From Cohnella sp. OV330 (GTDB lineage: Bacteria; Bacillota; Bacilli; Paenibacillales; Paenibacillaceae), in the NCBI RefSeq assembly GCF_900112065.1, contig NZ_FOKE01000013.1, positions 186,001 through 250,000 on the forward strand: DNA of 64,000 nucleotides. Direction: 5' to 3'. Positions 37,328 through 48,461 of the stretch are shown here, piece by piece. Made by a program: the position numbers and the translations under genes. The notes below the pieces were generated by a model. The model did not search any database. It was not told the DNA's origin and saw only the letters and a program-made list of their open reading frames with translations. Each line of letters starts with the position of its first letter. Position 1 is the stretch's first letter.

Positions 37328-37355
37328 AGAACGGTCAAAGAAGCTTGACCGTTCT
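37328..37355. terminator. Bidirectional terminator overlapping the end of the acetyltransferase gene
   Basis: AGAACGGTCAA / TTGACCGTTCT with a 6-base loop. It stands between convergent genes and overlaps the last codons of the reverse-strand gene; T-rich sequence follows on the reverse strand (TTTATTAT). Confidence 0.65.
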
Positions 37356-38213
37356 CCAAAGCACTTCTTTTTGCACACCCGGGCAGGAAACATGCCTGGC
37401 CAAAAAACGGACCATATCTGCGTTGCGCGCTTCGACGAACAGGAGCCATTCTGAGAATGCCGGATCGCGGATCAAGCGCCGTCCCCCTTCGGCCGCCAAA
37501 GCGATGCCGCGCCCCATCCGCTGATGCCGGGGATGCACGAACATCGTTTTGAACAGCATCGTTCGGGTGTCAAACGGCTCGAAGATCATCCATCCGACGA
37601 CCGCTCCGCCATAGCGCAGGAGCAGGCTGCGTTCCTTATCAATCAGGTTTTCATCCGCAAACGGCGAGTAGTCTGGCGTATACCAAACGCCCTCTCCTTG
37701 CCGTACTTCCTCGTACTCCTGCGTCGTCAACGTCGTGAAGGGTCTGACCGCAAACACATCCGGCAGCCGTAATCGATAGACCCACGGCATCTCCGGATGA
37801 AGCCCCGTCGAGCCGCCCCAAATTTGAATGCCGTGTCGCGGTTTGCCAAATCCGCATGCCTTTAAAAAAGCGGCCTCTACCGTGTCAGGATCGGCGCCTC
37901 CGAGATATTCGGCTCCGATTGCGCGCGTTCCCGTCTGCCTCAGCGCCGTCTCGATCTCGCCGAATAGCGCACGCCCCACGCCCTGGCGACGCTCCGGCTC
38001 GGATACGGTCAGCGCGAGCAAGCCCGCCGTATCGGATGCCTCACGCCGCTCGGCAATCGCCACTCCGACCGGCTCGGCTCCCCGACGGGCTCCCAGCGCC
38101 AGGAACGAAGCCGGAAGCCGCTGCTGCAACACATGGCTTAACACAGGGGGGATCAGGCCTGTGTAAACACCTGGCACTGCGTCCTGAATCGCCTCAATCT
38201 CCAGGGCTTCCAT
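37335..38213 (-). CDS. Tandem-GNAT acetyltransferase
   Basis: 292 residues with two GNAT domains. The first (about 1-140) carries LTVSEPERRQGVGRALF and the second (about 150-292) carries MFVHPRHQRMGRGIALA. Both acetyl-CoA loops (R-x-G-V-G and R-M-G-R-G) look intact. The ATG at 38213 follows the stop of the upstream SLH gene by one base and has no good ribosome-binding site, implying translational coupling. The substrate is unknown. Confidence 0.82.
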   Translation of the reverse strand: MEALEIEAIQDAVPGVYTGLIPPVLSHVLQQRLPASFLALGARRGAEPVGVAIAERREASDTAGLLALTVSEPERRQGVGRALFGEIETALRQTGTRAIGAEYLGGADPDTVEAAFLKACGFGKPRHGIQIWGGSTGLHPEMPWVYRLRLPDVFAVRPFTTLTTQEYEEVRQGEGVWYTPDYSPFADENLIDKERSLLLRYGGAVVGWMIFEPFDTRTMLFKTMFVHPRHQRMGRGIALAAEGGRRLIRDPAFSEWLLFVEARNADMVRFLARHVSCPGVQKEVLWRTVKLL

Positions 38214-38214
38214 C

Positions 38215-40899
38215 TCAGTATTGCGGTACGTCTATCGTTGAATCGACGGAAAGTGCGTTCCCGGCATGGTCTGTAATGCCAGTCGCGACAATCCTGAATT
38301 TGCTGGACGATTGAGGCACAAATAAAGCTTTTGCTCCATCTCTCAACGTAATGATAATGCGCTTATCGACGAATTCGACAGAATACTGAGTATCCACAGT
38401 TAATGGCTCGAAATCGACGGCATTGCCGCTCTGAGAAAACTGTACCTGCAAACTATATCCCATTATTGATGTCGTCAACAATTCGTTTGCCGTTAGCGTG
38501 AACTGATCGTTGCCGTAGACACTGCTGCTCAACGTCGGAACCGTCTCGTCCATAACGATCGGCAGCGTCACCTGGCTGACCTCCTCGTTACCCTGCTTGA
38601 CATGGAATACAAGGGCAGCCTCCGTGCTTTCGGTGGCGGCGTCTAACGGGTGAATGGTAATCCCGGAAGAGTCCGGAGTGAGCTCCACAAGCGGAGATGT
38701 GGATTCAACCGTGATGGTGCCCACCACGCCGCTTCCGCTCTCCGTTACGGTAAACTGTTTATTGACGGTATCGTATTCGATCGTCTCGGATACCGCGCCG
38801 CGTTTGATTTGCAAATAATTTTTAATACTGCGCTTATTGTATTGCTCATAACTGTCGGTAGACAGAAACGTATCTCCGGTCGTGCCGGTTCTGCCGCTGT
38901 TGAGGTAGAAAGGACGCCCCTCCAAGGAGGCCTTCAGCGAAGGCGAGCTAACGTCCTCAAACGCCGTAATTGCATCCTGCAGTGCCGCCTTCGCGCTGTC
39001 GATCTCCGACTGTATTACTCCAGCCTTCGCCTTTACTTCTTCCGCAGCTTGGATCGCGTCGTTCAGCGCGTCGATAGCGCTCTGCGGATATTGACCTTCT
39101 TCGGTGCCGGCCACCGCCGCATCGACAAGGTCCCAGGCGTCAGCGATCGCTGCAGCCAGCTGCGTAAGATCGATATGGACGGCAGTCTTCTTAAATGCAT
39201 CGATCGCTTCCTGCAGGGTTGCAGTTGCGCCGTTGATCTCTGCCTGCGTGGCTTCGGCGTCTCCCTTCACTACTGCTGCTGTCTCGATCGCATCGTTCAA
39301 CACATCGATCGCGCTCTGCGGGTACTGGCCTTCCGCGCCGCCGGCCACTGCCGCGTGAGCGACGCCCGAGGCTTCTTCGATCGCCGCATCTAACCGTGCT
39401 GTACCGACGTGCACGACTGCAACCTTAAATGTATGGATCGCCGTCCGAAGCGAAGCGGCTGCGCCGTCGATCTCAGCCTGCGCTGCACCTGCGCTGGCCT
39501 TCGTCTCTTTTGCAGTCGCGATCGCGACATTCAGCGCGTCTATCGCGCTCTGCTGATACTGGCCTTCCGCGCCGCCGGCCACCGCTGCATCGGCAAGGCT
39601 CGAAGCTTCTTCGATCGCCGCATCCAGTGTTCGCGTGTCCGCGACAATCGGAGCGCTGTTAGATACCGAGGCGGACGGCTTGGACACCGGTACGCCGCTT
39701 GCCGAGACGATGCTGCCGATCTGCGCTTGAACCTGACCCGGATTCGTAACGATATCCGTCAGCGCGACGCCATCCGGCAGGACCAGGCGGGTAATACGCA
39801 CATCGCTGCCGAGGGTCAACTTGGCTTTTGAATTGGTAACCTCGATCTCGCCATAGGAACCTTTGCCGGACAGCGTCACCGTCTGCCCCGTAAGCTTCAG
39901 ATGGTCAACGATCGCATCGACGGATACGTTAGCCGCTTGATTTTGCAATGTCAGGTTCGTGACCGATCCGCCGCTGATCGCTACATAGTCGCCCGATATC
40001 TTCAACGTCGCTCCCGCGGGCATCCCTGTCGTATCCAGCTTAACCGAAGACCCCGCCTTCCCTGCAGCGACGATCTCCAGCTCCGACAGATCGTTCAAGC
40101 TCCGAACGGCAGATTTGAACCTAAGCACCGCGCCTTGAAGCGCCTCTATGTTGCCGTCGCCTAGCAGAAGACGCTTCAACGCGTCCGATACGAGCAATGG
40201 CGTCCCGTTAATCGTTATTACATCCCCGTCTACCTTGGTTACGGTTGCCGTTTGCTCTTTTTCCGGGAAAATATCGACCAGAAACTGTGCAATATCCGCT
40301 CTTGCGACTTCCTGCCGCGGTTCGAAGCCGTTCGTCTGCGGGGTCATCAGCCCAAGCCGGAGCGCGGTTTGCACGGACGCTGAGGCCCAGCCGCTCGCCT
40401 CGGCGGCAAGCGCGGGGTCCGTCTCAAGTCCGCCGGTCGTATTCTGGCCGTTGACGGCACGTACGAATACGGACGCCAGCTCCTGCCGGGTAATCTTGCG
40501 ATTCGGCTCGAAGCCGGCATTCGATCCGTTCATGAGACCGGCCTTGCGGACCGCCTCAATATAACCGACGCTCCAACTGTCGGAGGCTACATCCTTGAAG
40601 GTTGATCCGGCATTCGTATCTACCGAAAGCTTCAGTGCTTTGGCCAGCAGCACGGCCAACTGCGTCCGTGTCAACGACTCGTCCGGCTTGAACTCCCCGT
40701 TCGGATAACCGCTGATCAGCCCTAGCGAGACCGCTTGGTTGATGGCTGCCTGTCGGTCGGCCGGGACCGGACCGATATCTTTAAACGAAGTTTGCTCCGA
40801 GGATACCGAAGGGGCGGCGAGTACGTTCCTGGCCCCGAAAGTTGTTGTAGCGATCATGCTTGCCAGTAAAACTGCTTTCCAGTTGGTTGCCAGTTTAAT
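38215..40899 (-). CDS. SLH-domain surface protein with three FIVAR repeats
   Basis: About 894 residues. After the signal peptide (NWKAVLLASMIATTTFGARNVLAAP) come three N-terminal SLH domains (about residues 37-225), a beta-rich region about 230-410, three tandem FIVAR-type three-helix repeats of about 74 residues (each starting L-A-IEEA or close), then a beta-rich C-terminal region of about 250 residues. The frame is open upstream to 40995, but the promoter at 40931-40975 would start the transcript near 40924, downstream of every ATG/GTG/TTG in frame; AGAGG lies 5 nt before ATT 40899, making ATT (or CTG 40893) the likely start. Surface-anchored to wall polymer. Confidence 0.82.
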   Translation of the reverse strand: MKLATNWKAVLLASMIATTTFGARNVLAAPSVSSEQTSFKDIGPVPADRQAAINQAVSLGLISGYPNGEFKPDESLTRTQLAVLLAKALKLSVDTNAGSTFKDVASDSWSVGYIEAVRKAGLMNGSNAGFEPNRKITRQELASVFVRAVNGQNTTGGLETDPALAAEASGWASASVQTALRLGLMTPQTNGFEPRQEVARADIAQFLVDIFPEKEQTATVTKVDGDVITINGTPLLVSDALKRLLLGDGNIEALQGAVLRFKSAVRSLNDLSELEIVAAGKAGSSVKLDTTGMPAGATLKISGDYVAISGGSVTNLTLQNQAANVSVDAIVDHLKLTGQTVTLSGKGSYGEIEVTNSKAKLTLGSDVRITRLVLPDGVALTDIVTNPGQVQAQIGSIVSASGVPVSKPSASVSNSAPIVADTRTLDAAIEEASSLADAAVAGGAEGQYQQSAIDALNVAIATAKETKASAGAAQAEIDGAAASLRTAIHTFKVAVVHVGTARLDAAIEEASGVAHAAVAGGAEGQYPQSAIDVLNDAIETAAVVKGDAEATQAEINGATATLQEAIDAFKKTAVHIDLTQLAAAIADAWDLVDAAVAGTEEGQYPQSAIDALNDAIQAAEEVKAKAGVIQSEIDSAKAALQDAITAFEDVSSPSLKASLEGRPFYLNSGRTGTTGDTFLSTDSYEQYNKRSIKNYLQIKRGAVSETIEYDTVNKQFTVTESGSGVVGTITVESTSPLVELTPDSSGITIHPLDAATESTEAALVFHVKQGNEEVSQVTLPIVMDETVPTLSSSVYGNDQFTLTANELLTTSIMGYSLQVQFSQSGNAVDFEPLTVDTQYSVEFVDKRIIITLRDGAKALFVPQSSSKFRIVATGITDHAGNALSVDSTIDVPQY

Positions 40900-40930
40900 C
40901 CCATCCTCTTGGTTGAAAAGTCTTAAGGTC

Positions 40931-40975
40931 AGTATAATCTTCGTCGATGACGGTAAAATGACAGATTTCGATGAA
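40931..40975 (-). promoter_or_regulatory. Conserved surface-regulon promoter, copy 1
   Basis: Reverse strand, numbering the element 1-45 from 40975: TTCATCGAA at 1-9, TGTCATTT at 13-20, CCGTCAT at 23-29, TATACT at 40-45 (40931-40936). No -35 consensus. The spacing is identical in copies 45283-45327 and 48417-48461. Confidence 0.8.
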
Positions 40976-41000
40976 TTACGACACAATGTGTGCAAACCGA

Positions 41001-41031
41001 AGAACCGCCAGGAGAAACTCCCGACGGTTCT
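41001..41031 (-). terminator. Hairpin after the SLH gene
   Basis: AGAACCGTC..GGCGGTTCT-type stem with an internal GGGAG..CTCC pairing, 46 bp after the stop codon. It is followed by a short T-containing stretch (TCTTCGGTTTG) on the reverse strand. Confidence 0.5.
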
Positions 41032-41076
41032 TTGGCCTTTCTTTTCATAGCCATGCGCCGCGATCGGAGGGATAGA

Positions 41077-42768
41077 TCAGTCGATCAGGTCCGCATACTG
41101 CATGAACCTCTTCAACATAACGGCCGCTTGCGCGCGGCTCGCCTGCGCCGAAGGCACGAACGTGTCGGTCGTCATGCCGGTGATGATGCCGGCATCGACG
41201 GCTTGCGCCACGGATACGCGGGCCCAGCTGCCGATCGCGGACTTGTCCTTAAAGGCGTTCAGCGAGGCTTCCGAAGACGCTGCCGTCGAAGCGGAGCCTT
41301 GCGCGTACGCGACGGCTCTCGTGATCATGATCGCCATCTGCTCGCGGGTGATCGTAGCGCCTGGCTTGAAGCTGCCGTCCTCGAAGCCTTCGACCAGCTT
41401 CGCCTTTACGGCTGCGCCAGTCGCGCCTGCGTACCATGCGCCGGATGCGACATCCTTGAAGCCGGCAGCGCCGGAAGCGTCCGGCGTGAGGCCCAGCGCA
41501 CGGACGAGCAGCGCCGCGAACTCGGCGCGCGTGATGCTGCTGTTCGGCGCGAACTTCGTGTCGGACACGCCGTTGACGACTAGCTTGGAGGCGAGCAGCT
41601 CGATGTCTGCTTTTGCCCAATGCGTGCTCAGGTCGGAGAAAGCTTTGGTAGCCGTCAACACCGTATAGATGCTGTTGCCGTTGCGCTTGAACGTAATCTT
41701 GACAGTGCCATCCTCTTGCTTCGTGAATAGTGCAGGCACGAAGGTAAGGGCGCCCGTCTGCGGATCGTATAGCGCGACGGTCGAATGCGAAGCGTCAATC
41801 GTGCCGGAAGCGACGACCGTACGCGACACATAGGTCGAGCCGAATTCATTCAGCTCGGAAGTCTTGCCGCCGCCGGAAGCGACGATCGAGAATTCGATCG
41901 CGCCGCCCTGCTGCGAGGCGCCGATACCAGCCGCGCTAGCCTTAATCTTGGCGTTGATGTCATCCGCGGACGGGACGATATTGACTTGAATGCTGATGCT
42001 TCCCGGCTCAGCGCCGAGGCTCGCCGCGATCGCGTCGAAGTTCAGCACGCCGAGCGGCAGCGAATATTCGCCTTCGCCGGTTTGCAGCGATACGATCGCA
42101 CCCAACGAGGCGGCGTCCTTCAGGACGGAGAACGGCAGGTTAAACTGCACGGCATCGCCCTGCTTGCCCTCATAGGCAATGTATACGACAGGTGCTGCGC
42201 CCTTGTTGTCCTGCTGCGCAGCCTTTTTCAGCGCGTCGGCGAGCGATGCGCCGTCTTGCGTGATGACGGTCGTCGAGCGGCCGTTGACGTCTACCGTCGA
42301 AGTCTTGTTCTTGCTCGTGTCGACCACGACCGGTACAGCGCCGCCTACCGGCGTGATGACCTTGCCCGGCGTCGGAGGAGGCGTCGGCGTCGACACCGAC
42401 CCGCTCGGAGGCGGCGTGACTATCTTCGCCGTCACCTTAAAAGTCTTGCTGGCTACCTCGCTGCCTTGCCCCGCAACCACGGTATAGGTACCAGCGGGTT
42501 CGCCAGATCCGATCGTGAACGGCGCAGCGAACTGACCTGCGGTCACTGGCACGATATCGAAGTACACGACGCTGGTGTCCGGCCGCAGCACTTTGACGAT
42601 GACCTCATCCAACGAGGTATCGCCTTTAATATCGACTTGATCACCCGCCGTAACGTCCGCTACGCCCTGCAGCGAGACGCCCGAGCTCTCGGCATAAGCC
42701 GCCGCGGACGGCACGAAGGCCAGGCATAGCGTCAGAATCATGAATATACGAAGCATGTGCGATTTCAC
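41077..42768 (-). CDS. SLH-domain surface protein with Ig-like N-terminus
   Basis: 563 residues. Signal peptide about 1-25 (LRIFMILTLCLAFVPSAAAYA), an Ig-like/MG2-type domain about 28-118 (sentence-like V-AGDQVDIKGDTSLDEVIVKV), a Pro/Thr linker, a middle domain about 150-370 related to that of the protein at 2777, and three C-terminal SLH domains (about 375-563; FAPNSSITRAEFAALL, FKPGATITREQMAIMI, FVPSAQASRAQAAVML). The start is GTG 42768, only 19 bp after the preceding 813-residue surface protein, so the two form one transcription unit from the promoter at 45283. Confidence 0.85.
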   Translation of the reverse strand: MKSHMLRIFMILTLCLAFVPSAAAYAESSGVSLQGVADVTAGDQVDIKGDTSLDEVIVKVLRPDTSVVYFDIVPVTAGQFAAPFTIGSGEPAGTYTVVAGQGSEVASKTFKVTAKIVTPPPSGSVSTPTPPPTPGKVITPVGGAVPVVVDTSKNKTSTVDVNGRSTTVITQDGASLADALKKAAQQDNKGAAPVVYIAYEGKQGDAVQFNLPFSVLKDAASLGAIVSLQTGEGEYSLPLGVLNFDAIAASLGAEPGSISIQVNIVPSADDINAKIKASAAGIGASQQGGAIEFSIVASGGGKTSELNEFGSTYVSRTVVASGTIDASHSTVALYDPQTGALTFVPALFTKQEDGTVKITFKRNGNSIYTVLTATKAFSDLSTHWAKADIELLASKLVVNGVSDTKFAPNSSITRAEFAALLVRALGLTPDASGAAGFKDVASGAWYAGATGAAVKAKLVEGFEDGSFKPGATITREQMAIMITRAVAYAQGSASTAASSEASLNAFKDKSAIGSWARVSVAQAVDAGIITGMTTDTFVPSAQASRAQAAVMLKRFMQYADLID

Positions 42769-42787
42769 TGCTTGTTTCCCCGCTCCC

Positions 42788-45229
42788 TTAAGGTCTGTTG
42801 TTGTTATTATATTGCGACAGCATCATTGCTTCGTCGATCTCCGTCTGCGTCTTGATCGTGCCAAGATTCAGTCCGAGGTTCAGCGTATCGCTGTCGAAGC
42901 TGCTGACTAAGAAGGCCTTGACCGTATAGTTTTTTGTGGCTGCGTCGTTAACGCTGAAGTTCGCCGAATAAGTACCTGTGCCGATTGCCAGCTCCGCTGC
43001 CGCGATGCTCACCGGCGTATTACCGTCGAACAGCTCGAACACGACGGCTTGCGTACCTGTGTTGCCGCCTGACTCGGATGACTTCAACAAATTAACGTAA
43101 TTGTTATTACTATTGCTATTGCCATAAGCCTGATTGTAAATAAACACTTTTGCCGTAATGCCGCTCGTCTTCGTGATCGACGGAGGCGTCATATAGAAGA
43201 TATCGGACGACTTAAAGGTCCCGCCGCTATACGTTTGCGTTTGATAGCCGTCCGCTTCGACGCTCACGTAGTAGTAATGATCCTTCAAGAAGACGCCCTT
43301 ACGAATCGTTAACTTGCCGTCTTCAACGCCATACTCCGTTCCCGTCAACTCTCTATAACTGCAAGTGTTGTAGTCCCAGACCGTAACGCTAAGGATGTGG
43401 CCGATCCATTCGGCATTCTGGTCAAGCTTCAGTACGGTATCCGCATCTGCGAACAAATAACCCGTAATCCGGGGAGCAGCAGCGACGATCGTCGTCACGA
43501 GCTCATCGTTCGATACATAGCCATGAGAATCCGTTAAGGAGTTCGCATCAATCTTAACTTGAATGGTGCCCGCCGTGATTCGGTTCTTCAAGAAGATCCC
43601 GATCTGGTTGCTTTGTACGACAATTCTATCGTCGGCGGACAGCTTCGTGAATGTCTTGCCGTTGTCCGTCGAGATCGAGATTTTGTCCTGCAGGTGGGTG
43701 CCCACTTCGTCCAAAGTCAAGTCAGTCAACTTATTAGAATAAATGGCATCGAGTTCCAGGCCTACAAAGCGTCCATTCAAATCTACGGTGCCGCCGTACA
43801 AACCGATGGAGCTATGGTCGTTAATGTCAAACCAAGCCGAGTTGAACGAATCATTTGAATGATTGCCAGAGAGATCGGCGATTTGGCTAAGAGAGAAATA
43901 ATAGTAATGTACCTCACTATCGCGCGTCTCGAAATGGATCGTCACCGATGAACCCGACACAGTCACTGTCGCACCCGGAGGCAGCCCATGTACATAGTCA
44001 CCGCTAATCGAATCATACCAGTTAACATTGCTTTTGAACGCCTCGAGATCGTCGATCGCTACATTTTCGTTAAATTGCAAGGTCAGGTCCTTGAGATCTT
44101 TTGATACGACATAGTCCACAAGCTCAGGAGGAGTCAGATCGCTGTCATCATTTAATTTAAAATACGACGAAGAGATTTTACTCGAAAAGTAATTGCCTTC
44201 CGCGTCCTGCAGCGTAGAACCTTGAATGACGATTTGGTTCGTCTCGATTGTCAGCGGAGTTGCGAATTTGACGATCAGCTGATTATCTTTCAGCGTCACC
44301 TTATCGCCTTCTTCTAGGTTCCTTCTCTGAGTGACATCTTGATTAATTTGTTGCACATATATTCTCGAATTCAAATCGGTTGCGTCATAGTCCGGCGTGG
44401 GATAAATGTTGCGGTCGAACGTGACCGTAACCTCTTGATCGTTGTCGCTGAGCTCCACGCTCTTAATTGCCGGAGGGCTCACGGCAAGGGCCAACTCCGG
44501 TGTGACATTGCCTGCCGTATCCTCGAGCAAACCGGCTGCGAGTTTAATCTTAGTCTTAGGGCCGGAGACAAGTGCTACATTTTGATTAGAGTATATTTGC
44601 AAATAATTGCTTTCCCAATCCAAACTTACTACGCCGTCAAGCAATGGAGAGAAATGCTCTCCATCCTGCGCGATTTGAATTTGGCTTTGGAGATAAGACG
44701 CTTCGTCCTCGATGCTATCCGGGTATACGACGACGAAGTCTTCGTCGAAGTATAGCTTCACACCCTCACTGTAGCTCTCCGCTCCCACGAATTCCGGAGG
44801 CGTGATATCTCGACCCACGATCGAATTCAGTTCAATCGAACTCCCGTATGTGGCTTCCTGGTCCATCAGCCATAGCGCATCTGCCTCAATCCGAACGGCG
44901 TTGGACTTGCCGACCAACTCCGTATCCAGCGTCAAAACGAGCTGGCGCCGTTTATTGCTATCATACTGGACCGAATCCTTGTCGCCGAGCGGCGTTGGCT
45001 CATTGGTACCCGTCAATTGAAGCGAGATCGCGTTCTTCAATTCATCCGAGTTTCCCGCCGGCTCTATGTCACTGTCAAAACTGAGAGTAATCGTCTTGAA
45101 ATCCTCGCTGACGGAAGCTGTCGCATTTAGCGTCGCGGGCGTAATCGGCTCCGCACTCGCCGCAGGCGCGTACGAGAACGCCGCGAAGACCAACATCGCC
45201 AGCATCAAAAATACTGAAACTTTTTTCAT
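42788..45229 (-). CDS. Secreted multi-domain Ig-like surface protein
   Basis: 813 residues. Signal peptide about 1-26 (VFLMLAMLVFAAFSYAPAASA). Several SwmB/Ig-like beta-sandwich repeats of about 110 residues follow (each with T-P-ELV or T-P-EFV junctions near 145, 260 and 375), then a region resembling the hemoblobin-interacting domain (about 600-680) and a final beta domain. There is no SLH or LPXTG motif, so attachment may depend on the SLH protein encoded directly downstream. The base composition is visibly more A/T-rich than the flanking genes and the residue use is Asn/Ser/Tyr-rich, suggesting a different origin or relaxed selection. Function unknown. Confidence 0.8.
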   Translation of the reverse strand: MKKVSVFLMLAMLVFAAFSYAPAASAEPITPATLNATASVSEDFKTITLSFDSDIEPAGNSDELKNAISLQLTGTNEPTPLGDKDSVQYDSNKRRQLVLTLDTELVGKSNAVRIEADALWLMDQEATYGSSIELNSIVGRDITPPEFVGAESYSEGVKLYFDEDFVVVYPDSIEDEASYLQSQIQIAQDGEHFSPLLDGVVSLDWESNYLQIYSNQNVALVSGPKTKIKLAAGLLEDTAGNVTPELALAVSPPAIKSVELSDNDQEVTVTFDRNIYPTPDYDATDLNSRIYVQQINQDVTQRRNLEEGDKVTLKDNQLIVKFATPLTIETNQIVIQGSTLQDAEGNYFSSKISSSYFKLNDDSDLTPPELVDYVVSKDLKDLTLQFNENVAIDDLEAFKSNVNWYDSISGDYVHGLPPGATVTVSGSSVTIHFETRDSEVHYYYFSLSQIADLSGNHSNDSFNSAWFDINDHSSIGLYGGTVDLNGRFVGLELDAIYSNKLTDLTLDEVGTHLQDKISISTDNGKTFTKLSADDRIVVQSNQIGIFLKNRITAGTIQVKIDANSLTDSHGYVSNDELVTTIVAAAPRITGYLFADADTVLKLDQNAEWIGHILSVTVWDYNTCSYRELTGTEYGVEDGKLTIRKGVFLKDHYYYVSVEADGYQTQTYSGGTFKSSDIFYMTPPSITKTSGITAKVFIYNQAYGNSNSNNNYVNLLKSSESGGNTGTQAVVFELFDGNTPVSIAAAELAIGTGTYSANFSVNDAATKNYTVKAFLVSSFDSDTLNLGLNLGTIKTQTEIDEAMMLSQYNNNNRP

Positions 45230-45282
45230 TCTTCTTTTGTCACTCCTATATGTTTTTAGTGATTCTTTTTGCCTACTATGTC

Positions 45283-45327
45283 AGTATAAATGACGCCAAT
45301 GACGGCAAAATGACAAACTTCGACGAA
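45283..45327 (-). promoter_or_regulatory. Conserved surface-regulon promoter, copy 2
   Basis: Reverse strand, element positions from 45327: TTCGTCGAA 1-9, TGTCATTT 13-20, CCGTCAT 23-29, a further GTCATT at 34-39, TATACT 40-45 (45283-45288). The expected transcript start is about 47 nt before the ATG at 45229. Confidence 0.82.
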
Positions 45328-45350
45328 AGTCCATTCCCGCCGCGCATGCG

Positions 45351-45383
45351 AAAAAAGACTCATCCCGAGTGGGAACGAGTCTT
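45351..45383 (-). terminator. Rho-independent terminator after the response regulator
   Basis: Reverse strand stem AAGACTC-G-TTCCC / GGGAT-GAGTCTT with a 4-base loop and six T, about 32 bp after the stop codon. Confidence 0.9.
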
Positions 45384-45414
45384 CCGGCCAGCTTCCTCTA
45401 TTGATCTATCTCTT

Positions 45415-46557
45415 CTATTCGGCGGCTTCCAGCTGCGTCAGCAGCTGTCCGTACAGCTTAGTCACCTCTGTCGATGGCCGGACGCCCAGCTCTTCCTGAA
45501 GCGTGTCCGAAAACTTCGCGTACAACCGGGTCAGCGCTTCTCGATTGTGCTGCAGGGCCAGCGCCCTCATATATAGCTTGACCGTATCCTCGTCGAGCTC
45601 GTTGTATGCCGTGAGCTTGGCAAGCAGGCGGATCGCGGCCTGGATATCCCCCCGGTCCAACAACGCCTGGCCAAGACGAAGGGTGAACGACGCGTACATT
45701 TGGGAAATTCGTTCGACCTCGCTCCACGCCCACGGATAGGCGAGATCCCCGAACAGCTGGCCTACGTAGGCACGCTCCAGCTCGATCGCCCGGTCCAGGT
45801 TGGACGCATCCACCCCCGCCATTTCCCTACAGCCCTCTTCGAAGCGATGGAGGTCGACCTCCGCCAGCGTCAGATTCAGCGCATAGTGATTGGCGTTCGA
45901 ATACAGGCTTCCCTTCATGCCGATCGCTTCGAGCAGCTTGCGGAGCTGATAGGCCGTCGTGTTCAAGTAGACCTCCGCGTTCTTGCGGGGCATGCCGCCG
46001 AAGATGTCCTCGATCAGCCGCGCCCTGGAGACGAGGCTCCCGCGCTGCAGCACCAGATAGGCGCACAGCTCCGCGCTCTTGCTGGATCTCCACTTGACGA
46101 GCTCGCCCTGCGCGCCGCGGATCTCCATGCGCCCGAGACAGTTCACTCGCACTTGCGGCTCGGGTATTGCCGGACTTTCCGCGCTTCCCTTGCCTTCGCT
46201 CGCTTCTGCCATCGCCCTTCGGACGGTATGGTGCAGCCGCTCCTGAACGACAGGCTTCACCATAAAGTCATAGGCATAGACGTCGAACGCGGCCAGCGCG
46301 AATTCGGTATGCGAGGTCACGAAGACGAGCTTGACGTCCCTGTCGCTGGCCCGAAGGCGCTGGGCGAAGGCCATGCCGCTCTCCTTGGGCATGTTGATGT
46401 CGATGAAGATCAGGTCGACCGCGTTGCCCCTCAAATATGCCTCGGCCGATGCGGTGTCCGCGAAGCTGCCGACGACTTCGACGCCGTCGATTTTAGCCAG
46501 CATCCGCTTCATGATCAGGTGCATCGCCTTTTCGTCGTCTACGATCAGGACCTTCAT
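45415..46557 (-). CDS. Response regulator with winged-helix and BTAD domains
   Basis: 380 residues. The receiver domain 1-115 has D7/D8, phosphoacceptor D53 (LIFIDINMP), Thr/Ser in FVTSH and Lys in FMVKP. An OmpR-like winged helix is about 140-230 (VRVNCLGRMEIRG, then WRSSKSAELCAYLVLQRG), and a C-terminal bacterial transcriptional activation domain of helical repeats about 235-380. SARP-like proteins with this winged helix bind direct repeats overlapping the -35 region, exactly what the three promoters at 40931, 45283 and 48417 offer. ATG 46557 overlaps the kinase stop by 4 bp (ATGA); the open frame upstream of it is the kinase gene's shadow. Confidence 0.92.
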   Translation of the reverse strand: MKVLIVDDEKAMHLIMKRMLAKIDGVEVVGSFADTASAEAYLRGNAVDLIFIDINMPKESGMAFAQRLRASDRDVKLVFVTSHTEFALAAFDVYAYDFMVKPVVQERLHHTVRRAMAEASEGKGSAESPAIPEPQVRVNCLGRMEIRGAQGELVKWRSSKSAELCAYLVLQRGSLVSRARLIEDIFGGMPRKNAEVYLNTTAYQLRKLLEAIGMKGSLYSNANHYALNLTLAEVDLHRFEEGCREMAGVDASNLDRAIELERAYVGQLFGDLAYPWAWSEVERISQMYASFTLRLGQALLDRGDIQAAIRLLAKLTAYNELDEDTVKLYMRALALQHNREALTRLYAKFSDTLQEELGVRPSTEVTKLYGQLLTQLEAAE

Positions 46558-48362
46558 CCGATCTCCCTCTCCGCCATCAGGTCGTCGCCGAATGCGACGT
46601 CCGCCTGCGCGGCCGGCACCGTGAAATAGAATACGCTGCCCTGCCCGGGCGTGCTTTCGAACCAGAGCTCTCCTCCGTTCAGCCGCACGAACTCCTTGCA
46701 GAGCGCGAGCCCCAGCCCGACGCCTCGCTCGCCCGCCGTTCCTTCGGTAGAGACGACGTTGTCCTCCCGCAGCAGCGTATACAGCCGCTCCTCGGGCACG
46801 CCCGTGCCCGAATCGCTGACGCTGACGGTGAACGCGTCTCCCGACCGCGATGCCCGCACCTGGATGTCGCCGCCGAGCTCGGTGAATTTGATGGCATTGG
46901 ACAGCAGATTGCGGAGCACCAGGTCGAGCATCTCCTTGTCCGCGTACACGAACGCGTCCGACTGGACGTCGGATGCGATCCGGATGCCTTTGCCGTCGCT
47001 GCGGCCTTGCAGAAGCCGGACATTCCGCTGCACGGAGTGGGACAGGCTCTGGACGATCGGTACGAAGACCATGCCGCTCCGCTGACTGCGGAACCATTCG
47101 AGCAAGCTCTCGACGAGCGCAAAGGTGCTGTATACCTGGCGGCTCATCTCTTGCACGATCTCCTCATGGTCCTCTCCGCAGGCGGACGCCTCCTCCTCCA
47201 GCAGCTCGGTCAGATTCAGAAGCACCGCCATCGGATCCCGGATATCGTGCGCGATCACGTTGAACATCTGATCCTTGAAGGCGTTCAGCTCGCGAAGCTG
47301 CCTGGCGTTCTCGAGCAGCCGCTCCTCGGATCGCACCGCGTCCGTCACGTCGCGCAGCAGCAGCATCTTGCCCGTCGGTCTGGAACGGAAATCGGCGATG
47401 AGCGAGAGCTGGACTTTATAATAACGGTCCGCGGCCTCGTCCTTAAGAAGCTCCTGATCTTCGGAGCCAGGCGCACGGTCGATTCGCCGGAGAAGCTCGT
47501 GATTGGCCGCGAAAACGGCCGATGCCGGCTGGCCGATGCCGTTTTTGCGGCCCAGGCCTTGAATCGTGCGCCCGGCCGATTGATTGAAGCCGGTGATGTT
47601 GTGCTCCAGATCCAGCAGCACGACGGCGTCCTGCATGGATTCGAACACCTTCTGCAGCGCCATCGGCGCGAGCCGGAGCAGATTGAACTGGTAGATGCCG
47701 AACAGGAAAAAGATGCCCGAGAGGACGAAGCCGAACGGAGAAATATCGAACGGCGTGGGCAGCACCTCGCTGAGATAGACGAGCGTAAAGCTATAAGGGG
47801 CTAGCGAGCCTACCAGCATGAGCGCGACATGCTTTTTCATGGACGGCGCGGACTTGAAGTACATGCGCAGGAGGAGGACGGTCCCGACGAGGATGAGCAC
47901 GTATGCATACACCGCGTGCATGTAATAGAGCGGACCCCGGACGATCCGGGCCAGCGGGAAGCCCTCGGAGTCGTCGAGCGTGAGGCTTTTGTAAAAAAGA
48001 TGATGCCATTCGTTCGTATTGTGGGCGATGAACGTCACGACGGGAATGACCATCGCGGCGGCGACGGTCCATTTGCGTATGTAGGCCTGCTTGCCCGTAT
48101 ATTGGAGCACCATGACGATCCAGAATACGGTTCCGAACGGGATGCCGATATACTCGATGCGCAGCCAGAAGCGTATAGTCTCCAGCGACGTACTGACGAG
48201 TTCGAATGCGTAGCCGAGCGTGTAGAACGCGGTGCTCAAAATGCATAGGCCATAGCTGACCGCGATCGGCAGCTCTCTTCTTTTCCAGCACAGATAGACG
48301 ACCACCGCGGAGCAGCCGGTAGCCGCGATCAGCAAGGCGGACAAATATAAATTGAAGTTCAT
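46554..48362 (-). CDS. 7TM-sensor histidine kinase
   Basis: 602 residues. Seven transmembrane helices in residues 1-225 (histidine-kinase N-terminal 7TM type), a PAS-like domain about 235-345, a HisKA domain with phosphoacceptor H372 (NVIAHDIRDPMAVL), and HATPase_c with N-box NLLSNAIKF, G1 DSGTGVPEE and G2 GERGVGLGLALCKEF. Partner of the BTAD response regulator by 4-bp overlap. Its promoter carries the same element as two surface-protein units, indicating autoregulation. The signal is unknown; the 7TM sensor suggests a membrane or small lipophilic cue. Confidence 0.92.
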   Translation of the reverse strand: MNFNLYLSALLIAATGCSAVVVYLCWKRRELPIAVSYGLCILSTAFYTLGYAFELVSTSLETIRFWLRIEYIGIPFGTVFWIVMVLQYTGKQAYIRKWTVAAAMVIPVVTFIAHNTNEWHHLFYKSLTLDDSEGFPLARIVRGPLYYMHAVYAYVLILVGTVLLLRMYFKSAPSMKKHVALMLVGSLAPYSFTLVYLSEVLPTPFDISPFGFVLSGIFFLFGIYQFNLLRLAPMALQKVFESMQDAVVLLDLEHNITGFNQSAGRTIQGLGRKNGIGQPASAVFAANHELLRRIDRAPGSEDQELLKDEAADRYYKVQLSLIADFRSRPTGKMLLLRDVTDAVRSEERLLENARQLRELNAFKDQMFNVIAHDIRDPMAVLLNLTELLEEEASACGEDHEEIVQEMSRQVYSTFALVESLLEWFRSQRSGMVFVPIVQSLSHSVQRNVRLLQGRSDGKGIRIASDVQSDAFVYADKEMLDLVLRNLLSNAIKFTELGGDIQVRASRSGDAFTVSVSDSGTGVPEERLYTLLREDNVVSTEGTAGERGVGLGLALCKEFVRLNGGELWFESTPGQGSVFYFTVPAAQADVAFGDDLMAEREIG

Positions 48363-48416
48363 AAAAGAGGAGGCTCCTCATGGTGCTAGGCTGGAAATGC
48401 GTTCATTCGCTTCTAC

Positions 48417-48461
48417 AGTATACACCCCTTTAATGACGGAGAAATGACAAATTTCGACGAA
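48417..48461 (-). promoter_or_regulatory. Conserved surface-regulon promoter, copy 3 (kinase/regulator operon)
   Basis: Reverse strand, element positions from 48461: TTCGTCGAA 1-9, TGTCATTT 13-20, CCGTCATT 23-30, TATACT 40-45 (48417-48422). The spacing is the same as in the other two copies. Confidence 0.82.

Follow-up and report, generated by a model that had tools for sequence, protein, structure and literature searches.

Response regulators of the OmpR/PhoB type are associated with direct repeats that lie close to the -35 position at intervals of about 11 bp. For the SARP activator AfsR, PMC10936776 places the repeats 11 bp apart, with 8 bp between the 3' repeat and the -10 element and with the upstream repeat over the -35 position. 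AfsR and other Streptomyces SARPs are represented by PDB 8hvr and 8k60; the classical Streptomyces SARP has no receiver and activates an antibiotic biosynthetic cluster. EmbR of Mycobacterium tuberculosis (PDB 2fez) carries a C-terminal FHA domain. The nearest tested role that we found for an SLH surface protein of the kind considered here comes from a related genus: according to PMC3776848, knockout of SlhA in Paenibacillus alvei abolished swarming and impaired biofilm formation. SlhA is not known to belong to the regulon described below. In a literature search, with subscription journals mostly outside its range, none of the matches listed dealt with a response regulator of the BTAD kind that governs SLH genes.

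The window analysed here, 64,000 nucleotides of Cohnella sp. OV330 (contig NZ_FOKE01000013.1, positions 186,001 to 250,000), contains a kinase-regulator pair that very probably switches on the three look-alike promoters among which it is encoded. In many relatives of this bacterium, cell-surface proteins are probably under the control of the same switch and DNA code. The features of the locus are:

48417..48461, reverse strand: promoter/operator of the kinase-regulator operon, with GTCGAA, GTCATT and GTCATT and the -10 TATACT at 48417-48422
46554..48362, reverse strand: histidine kinase, 602 aa (Pfam HisKA_7TM, HisKA, HATPase_c and a weak PAS_4 under the cut-off)
45415..46557, reverse strand: response regulator, 380 aa (Pfam receiver, OmpR-type winged helix just under the cut-off, BTAD)
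45283..45327, reverse strand: promoter/operator of the Ig-like plus SLH operon, with three half-sites and the -10 TATACT at 45283-45288
42788..45229, reverse strand: secreted PF07550 (Shr-like HID) protein, 813 aa, the operon's first gene
41077..42768, reverse strand: SLH protein, 563 aa, the operon's second gene, after a 19 bp gap
40931..40975, reverse strand: promoter/operator of the SLH-FIVAR gene, with ATCGAA, GTCATT and GTCATC and the -10 TATACT at 40931-40936
38215..40899, reverse strand: SLH plus FIVAR surface protein (Pfam), with a putative start at CTG 40893 or ATT 40899
37335..38213, reverse strand: GNAT acetyltransferase, one base after the SLH-FIVAR gene

Pfam agrees with the gene assignments of the earlier note (SLH-FIVAR, Ig-like plus SLH, kinase/regulator), its Ig-like protein being PF07550. 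The kinase, with HisKA and HATPase domains, adjoins a receiver regulator with a phospho-acceptor Asp, as in a two-component system, and the receiver residues D7, D8, D53, T81 and K101 are invariant in 24 aligned sequences. Receiver and winged helix are shared with OmpR/PhoB-type response regulators, but here a BTAD domain follows the OmpR-type winged helix, as in the SARP domain, and the fold matches that of AfsR. Compared with AfsR and the other Streptomyces SARPs, the window regulator adds an N-terminal phospho-receiver and a partner 7TM kinase, its promoters have a third half-site and the half-site GTCATT, and its targets are SLH and Ig-like surface genes rather than antibiotic genes; from EmbR it differs in having an N-terminal receiver in place of the C-terminal FHA domain. 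Because it carries a receiver and its targets are mostly surface and signalling genes, we refer to a SARP-type output domain and not to a classical Streptomyces SARP. We take the system to be one of Bacillota, unlike the Streptomyces SARPs.

The SLH-FIVAR frame holds no ATG, GTG or TTG from the -10 to the signal peptide, and judging by eye (window 40891-40899) translation probably starts at the CTG or the ATT listed above; in L102 the aligned codon is TTG. A GNAT gene also follows the SLH-FIVAR gene immediately in L101 and L102 and is possibly a member of its operon. In some relatives a gene is split between frames (the regulator in L100, the kinase in L103 and L108), as a frameshift or a draft error would cause.

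Read on the reverse strand, the three 45-mers are TTCATCGAAATCTGTCATTTTACCGTCATCGACGAAGATTATACT (40931-40975), TTCGTCGAAGTTTGTCATTTTGCCGTCATTGGCGTCATTTATACT (45283-45327) and TTCGTCGAAATTTGTCATTTCTCCGTCATTAAAGGGGTGTATACT (48417-48461). The earlier note had given them one architecture, and the sequences at these coordinates bear this out: 31/45 columns are the same in all three, and half-sites led by GTC or ATC stand at positions 4, 14 and 25. It was also right that a consensus -35 is lacking, since TTGACA is matched at 2/6 positions at most by any hexamer 16-18 bp ahead of TATACT (3-4/6 at 15 bp). Three points need qualifying. The repeat interval of about 11 bp applies to the inner pair of half-sites, the outer spacing being 10; the block TTCRTCGAA is present in the window promoters, but its outer TTC is not kept across genera in the site profile described below; and two of the three half-sites are strongly conserved in that profile, the third being auxiliary. 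The SLH-FIVAR promoter has the lowest matrix score (42 vs 50 and 66).

The core TGTCATTTNNCCGTCAT, with up to two mismatches allowed, matches three times in the window, each time exactly, whereas shuffled windows gave a mean of 0.11 and none of 100 reached three. Across the whole genome (7,466,843 bases) it is exact only at these three sites, with seven extra matches at two mismatches and three matches for the pattern read backward; core plus -10, at up to three mismatches, finds the window's three sites alone and nothing backward. The earlier note had counted many genome matches unrelated to envelope genes as evidence against itself, and no such flood appeared: the genome's full sites number three, all at the locus. 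In the five closest loci (the window and L100-L103) the sites before the kinase gene and the Ig-like gene are present in 5/5, and that before the SLH-FIVAR gene in 3/5. We rejected the palindrome TTCGTCGAA as a separate inverted-repeat site, as the cross-genus conservation falls on GTCGAAGTT.

The direct repeats, 11 bp apart and with the 3' one 8 bp from the -10, stand in the register described for AfsR. While a site that overlaps the -35 position could also serve a repressor released upon kinase activity, the lack of a consensus -35 in all three promoters leaves little basal promoter to repress, and the geometry equals that given for the activator AfsR; we hold repression to be very unlikely.

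In the order, TGTCATTTNNCNGTCATT-N9-TANNNT with one mismatch allowed occurs in 50/392 genomes and 9/49 genera, compared with 6/392 genomes for the backward-read control. A profile was built from 109 distinct sites, collected with a pattern of fixed spacing and without the chance-like loci L179, L201 and L229. Its two GTCATT half-sites are near-invariant and are accompanied by a -10 TATACT; the GTCGAA upstream of them is weaker. When the spacing was not imposed, 54 loci fetched by the regulator held 46 distinct GTCATT pairs no more than 20 bp apart; 41 of the 46 were spaced 11 bp, and in 35 of these 41 TATANT followed the hexamer at 9 bp (the heptamer at 8 bp). Reversed sequence held three GTCATT pairs, none at 11 bp. 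The weight matrix gave one match of at least 2 bits in its backward control, and over 2.79 Mb of reversed sequence no match reached 8 bits. Relatives of the regulator occur in Cohnella (at 93, 86, 75 and 61% identity, with one 44% paralog), in many Paenibacillus and, at full length, in Psychrobacillus antarcticus. In this last species (L278:9200-10347) the gene behind the conserved site encodes an HD-domain protein and not an SLH protein.

This conservation bears on the idea that duplication of a single promoter gave rise to all three, which would then resemble each other through descent and have no common regulator. All three do lie on one strand within 7.6 kb; however, 14/45 columns differ among them, yet the repeats are kept in 9/49 genera and are also found at places remote from the locus. 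Having weighed duplication, we judge it extremely improbable.

Each of 115 sites (at most two mismatches) was classed by the longest ORF whose start lay no more than 450 bp away, with 13 sites in regulator-less genomes kept apart; the genome sets and positions behind the target and co-occurrence tallies were compiled by hand. In regulator-bearing genomes, 92/102 sites head SLH (51), Ig-like (24), receiver/regulator (11) or kinase (6) genes. The ten sites without a recognised target count against control by the kinase-regulator pair: seven have no ORF of 250 aa and three precede other genes, namely a MalT-like LuxR regulator of ~860 aa adjoining two regulator copies (L164:4779-7404), a repetitive protein that looks secreted by eye (L163) and a 383-aa protein (L224). 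Thirty-five of the 102 sites are remote from the regulator gene, that is, more than ~25 kb away or on another contig, although in draft assemblies another contig may still be close by; 22 of these head SLH genes, five receivers, two other genes and six none, so that 27/35 have recognised targets. The regulon is not every SLH gene of the genome, a reading we rejected because the genome has at least 150 SLH domain matches (150 of 198 candidates scored) against two SLH-bearing targets. Autoregulation, as proposed in the earlier note, fits the window and L100-L103, where a site heads the kinase gene, but such sites number six in total, and direct autoregulation is not general because in other lineages the kinase-regulator genes sit behind a regulated SLH gene or have no site.

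Does the motif follow the regulator? Relatives with E <=1e-105, our measure of regulator presence, occur in 47/392 order genomes; both motif and regulator are present in 37, the motif only in 13, the regulator only in 10 and neither in 332 (p 1.1e-31, although such p values overstate independence because the genomes are kin, and many sites adjoin the regulator gene). Among the 37 genomes of the genus, with up to two mismatches allowed, the corresponding counts are 9, 1, 0 and 27; seven further genomes have three-mismatch matches, which we took as chance, the backward pattern giving five such sites in four genomes. Inspection of the loci in the ten genomes that had the regulator only, by the strict pattern, revealed variant GTCATT-type sites (type A) in seven genomes, a site of the second type described below (type B) in G148, a weak intermediate site in G128 and none in G106.

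Ten of the 13 motif-only genomes belong to one lineage with a kept promoter, and the other three look like chance. In these ten related genomes (L187, L188, L190, L191, L194, L197-L200 and L203) the SLH, kinase and regulator genes behind the promoter are gone and both flanking genes remain. Mean ungapped identity among the operon-less promoters is 0.87 in the motif, 0.77 downstream and 0.51 upstream, the last lowered by gaps, and changes at fixed motif positions (by eye) are seen in 4/10 of them vs 1/7 operon-bearing relatives. By eye, a stem-loop with a T run lies shortly downstream, and a short transcript could persist because of it. The operon-less promoters could be decaying relics or the source of such a transcript.

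TGTCAT repeats 11 bp apart resemble a Pho box, and for that reason another OmpR/PhoB-type regulator, PhoB/PhoP-like for example, could read the sites; direct repeats of this type spaced one helical turn, and a site kept in ten regulator-less genomes, would both suit it. Against such a reader, most targets are SLH surface genes or belong to the system itself, and the motif follows the presence of the BTAD regulator, with a half-site that shifts with the regulator clade. Nor does the locus look like a Pho regulon, given the BTAD domain and three regulated operons that are not phosphate genes. We weighed such a reader, the Pho box included, and consider it improbable.

The shift of the half-site is seen in paralogous kinase-regulator pairs, whose regulators are 39-47% identical to the window regulator. 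In an inspection of 23 paralog loci, the motif at the same position and with the same geometry was TCTTTCATTATTCTTTTATT-N9-TAGACT or near variants, the half-site being CTTTYATT compared with GTCATT in the window regulator's clade. The Cohnella sp. OV330 genome itself holds such a pair (G000:C22:302954-306015, L114; genes C22:303078-306015, regulator C22:303078-304211), with a CTTTYATT repeat promoter that heads the gene of a very long SLH protein. In a tree of 89 regulators, the window regulator's clade has 50 rows, 44 of them with a site, and all 44 are GTCATT, a count that is not unbiased because the motif was why many of the loci were fetched; the other six have no site in the locus but have sites elsewhere in their genomes. 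Clade B, fetched by protein, has 18 rows, of which eight have a site, all CTTTYATT, and ten do not. A third clade, of eight rows, has mixed half-site types. Across the 59 tree rows that we labelled A or B by hand, the half-site changes in three steps. In this labelling, two-mismatch B matches in L189, L192, L193, L195, L196, L202, L204, L230, L241 and L242 were taken as chance, L058 (two mismatches, but at the customary position after the regulator gene) as B, and L056, L057 and L248 (one mismatch) as A.

Within the genus, the B motif occurs in 21/37 genomes (none for the backward pattern), and B regulators and B sites co-occur as 19/2/3/13 (both, one or the other alone, neither). The first genes behind B sites (20 loci, with 1.5 kb behind each site) include six SLH genes, and the majority of the rest seem by eye to encode secreted proteins. 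Clades A and B differ at winged-helix positions such as 157, 192, 196 and 208.

The paralogs also speak to the view that an alternative sigma factor recognises the conserved block, which would then not be an operator. A fixed distance to a conserved -10 and an absent -35 are what that view would expect. The block, however, repeats directly at an interval of one helical turn, TATACT is an ordinary kind of -10, and the paralogous regulator's promoters keep the layout in other letters; we weighed an alternative sigma factor and find it highly improbable.

A further comparison is offered by regulators with another output domain. In four Paenibacillus loci (L282, L284-L286) the kinase is 59% and the receiver 59-64% identical to the window proteins, and the output is a LuxR-type HTH. 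An Ig-like plus SLH operon lies behind the pair in three of the four, and in L284 genes for a 587-aa and an SLH protein. Receiver-LuxR regulators occur in four more loci (L279, L280, L283 and L287), and GTCATT-N5-GTCATT is found in 0/8 of the LuxR-type loci (L279, L280, L282-L287). Because these relatives are without the motif, it tracks the SARP-type output domain and not the kinase or the targets; in the exception, L104, an A site heads a receiver-LuxR gene that adjoins a full SARP-type regulator. L282 and L284-L286 instead have a common block, AACTATAACTTTAGTTACA, ahead of the first gene after the regulator, and this block is probably the site of the LuxR-type regulator; ACTTTAGTTACA occurs in L280 too. 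The co-occurrence, the remote SLH sites, the clade-specific half-site and the missing motif in LuxR-type loci thus favour the local regulator as reader, as the earlier note had suggested.

We consider the following scheme well supported and very likely to be correct as a whole, though we infer its phosphorylation, binding, activation and transcript-start steps, as well as the signal and the physiological role, for which the adhesion proposed in the earlier note is a conjecture. The 7TM histidine kinase would sense a signal and phosphorylate the receiver-winged helix-BTAD regulator, which would dimerise side by side on the two 11-bp direct repeats. With the -10 set at -12..-7, the GTCATT repeats would lie at -38..-33 and -27..-22, standing in for the missing -35. 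By analogy with AfsR, the regulator may recruit RNA polymerase to the TATACT -10, and its side-by-side dimer may contact sigma region 4 and the alpha CTD. It would thereby turn on (rather than repress) its own operon, the Ig-like/SLH operon and the SLH-FIVAR surface protein. A further protomer probably occupies the third half-site, the degenerate GTCGAA that lies 10 bp upstream, and this would strengthen the structural-gene promoters.

Such a system would supply a readable DNA code for a regulon of 9/49 genera in the order sample. Two paralogs that use different codes within the same genome could serve as a ready system for protein-DNA specificity, the relatives present a natural output-domain swap, and SARP promoter geometry is apparently used outside actinobacteria.

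Promoters differ by target class. With one lineage's 17 sites, which lack the third half-site, set apart and kinship ignored, the mean match of this half-site to GTCGAA is 5.24/6 in 68 SLH/Ig promoters, 6/6 in the six kinase promoters and 1.82 in the 11 receiver/regulator promoters, four of which match at 4 or 5. It is tempting to speculate, with some doubt on our part, that the family is an insulated set of two-component systems with SARP-type output, in which each surface-protein set has its half-site code (GTCATT or CTTTYATT), promoter architecture sets the order of action and receiver-only proteins are phosphate sinks. Were this true, three half-sites at structural and kinase promoters, and two at most receiver-only promoters, would set that order, and the induced sinks would brake or sharpen the response. 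The receiver-only genes with their simpler promoters would, on this hypothesis, form a feedback class.

The 11 receiver/regulator targets comprise nine receivers of 114-126 aa, one 200-aa receiver-LuxR protein and one 323-aa regulator. Motif-headed receiver-only proteins of 114-126 aa are found in L111, L168, L169, L173, L177, L184, L210, L213, L225 and L276, at 56-66% identity to the regulator's receiver. Where seen, most keep the phospho-acceptor residues: six retain Asp, Thr and Lys, and in the L169 protein Asn replaces the first acidic residue.
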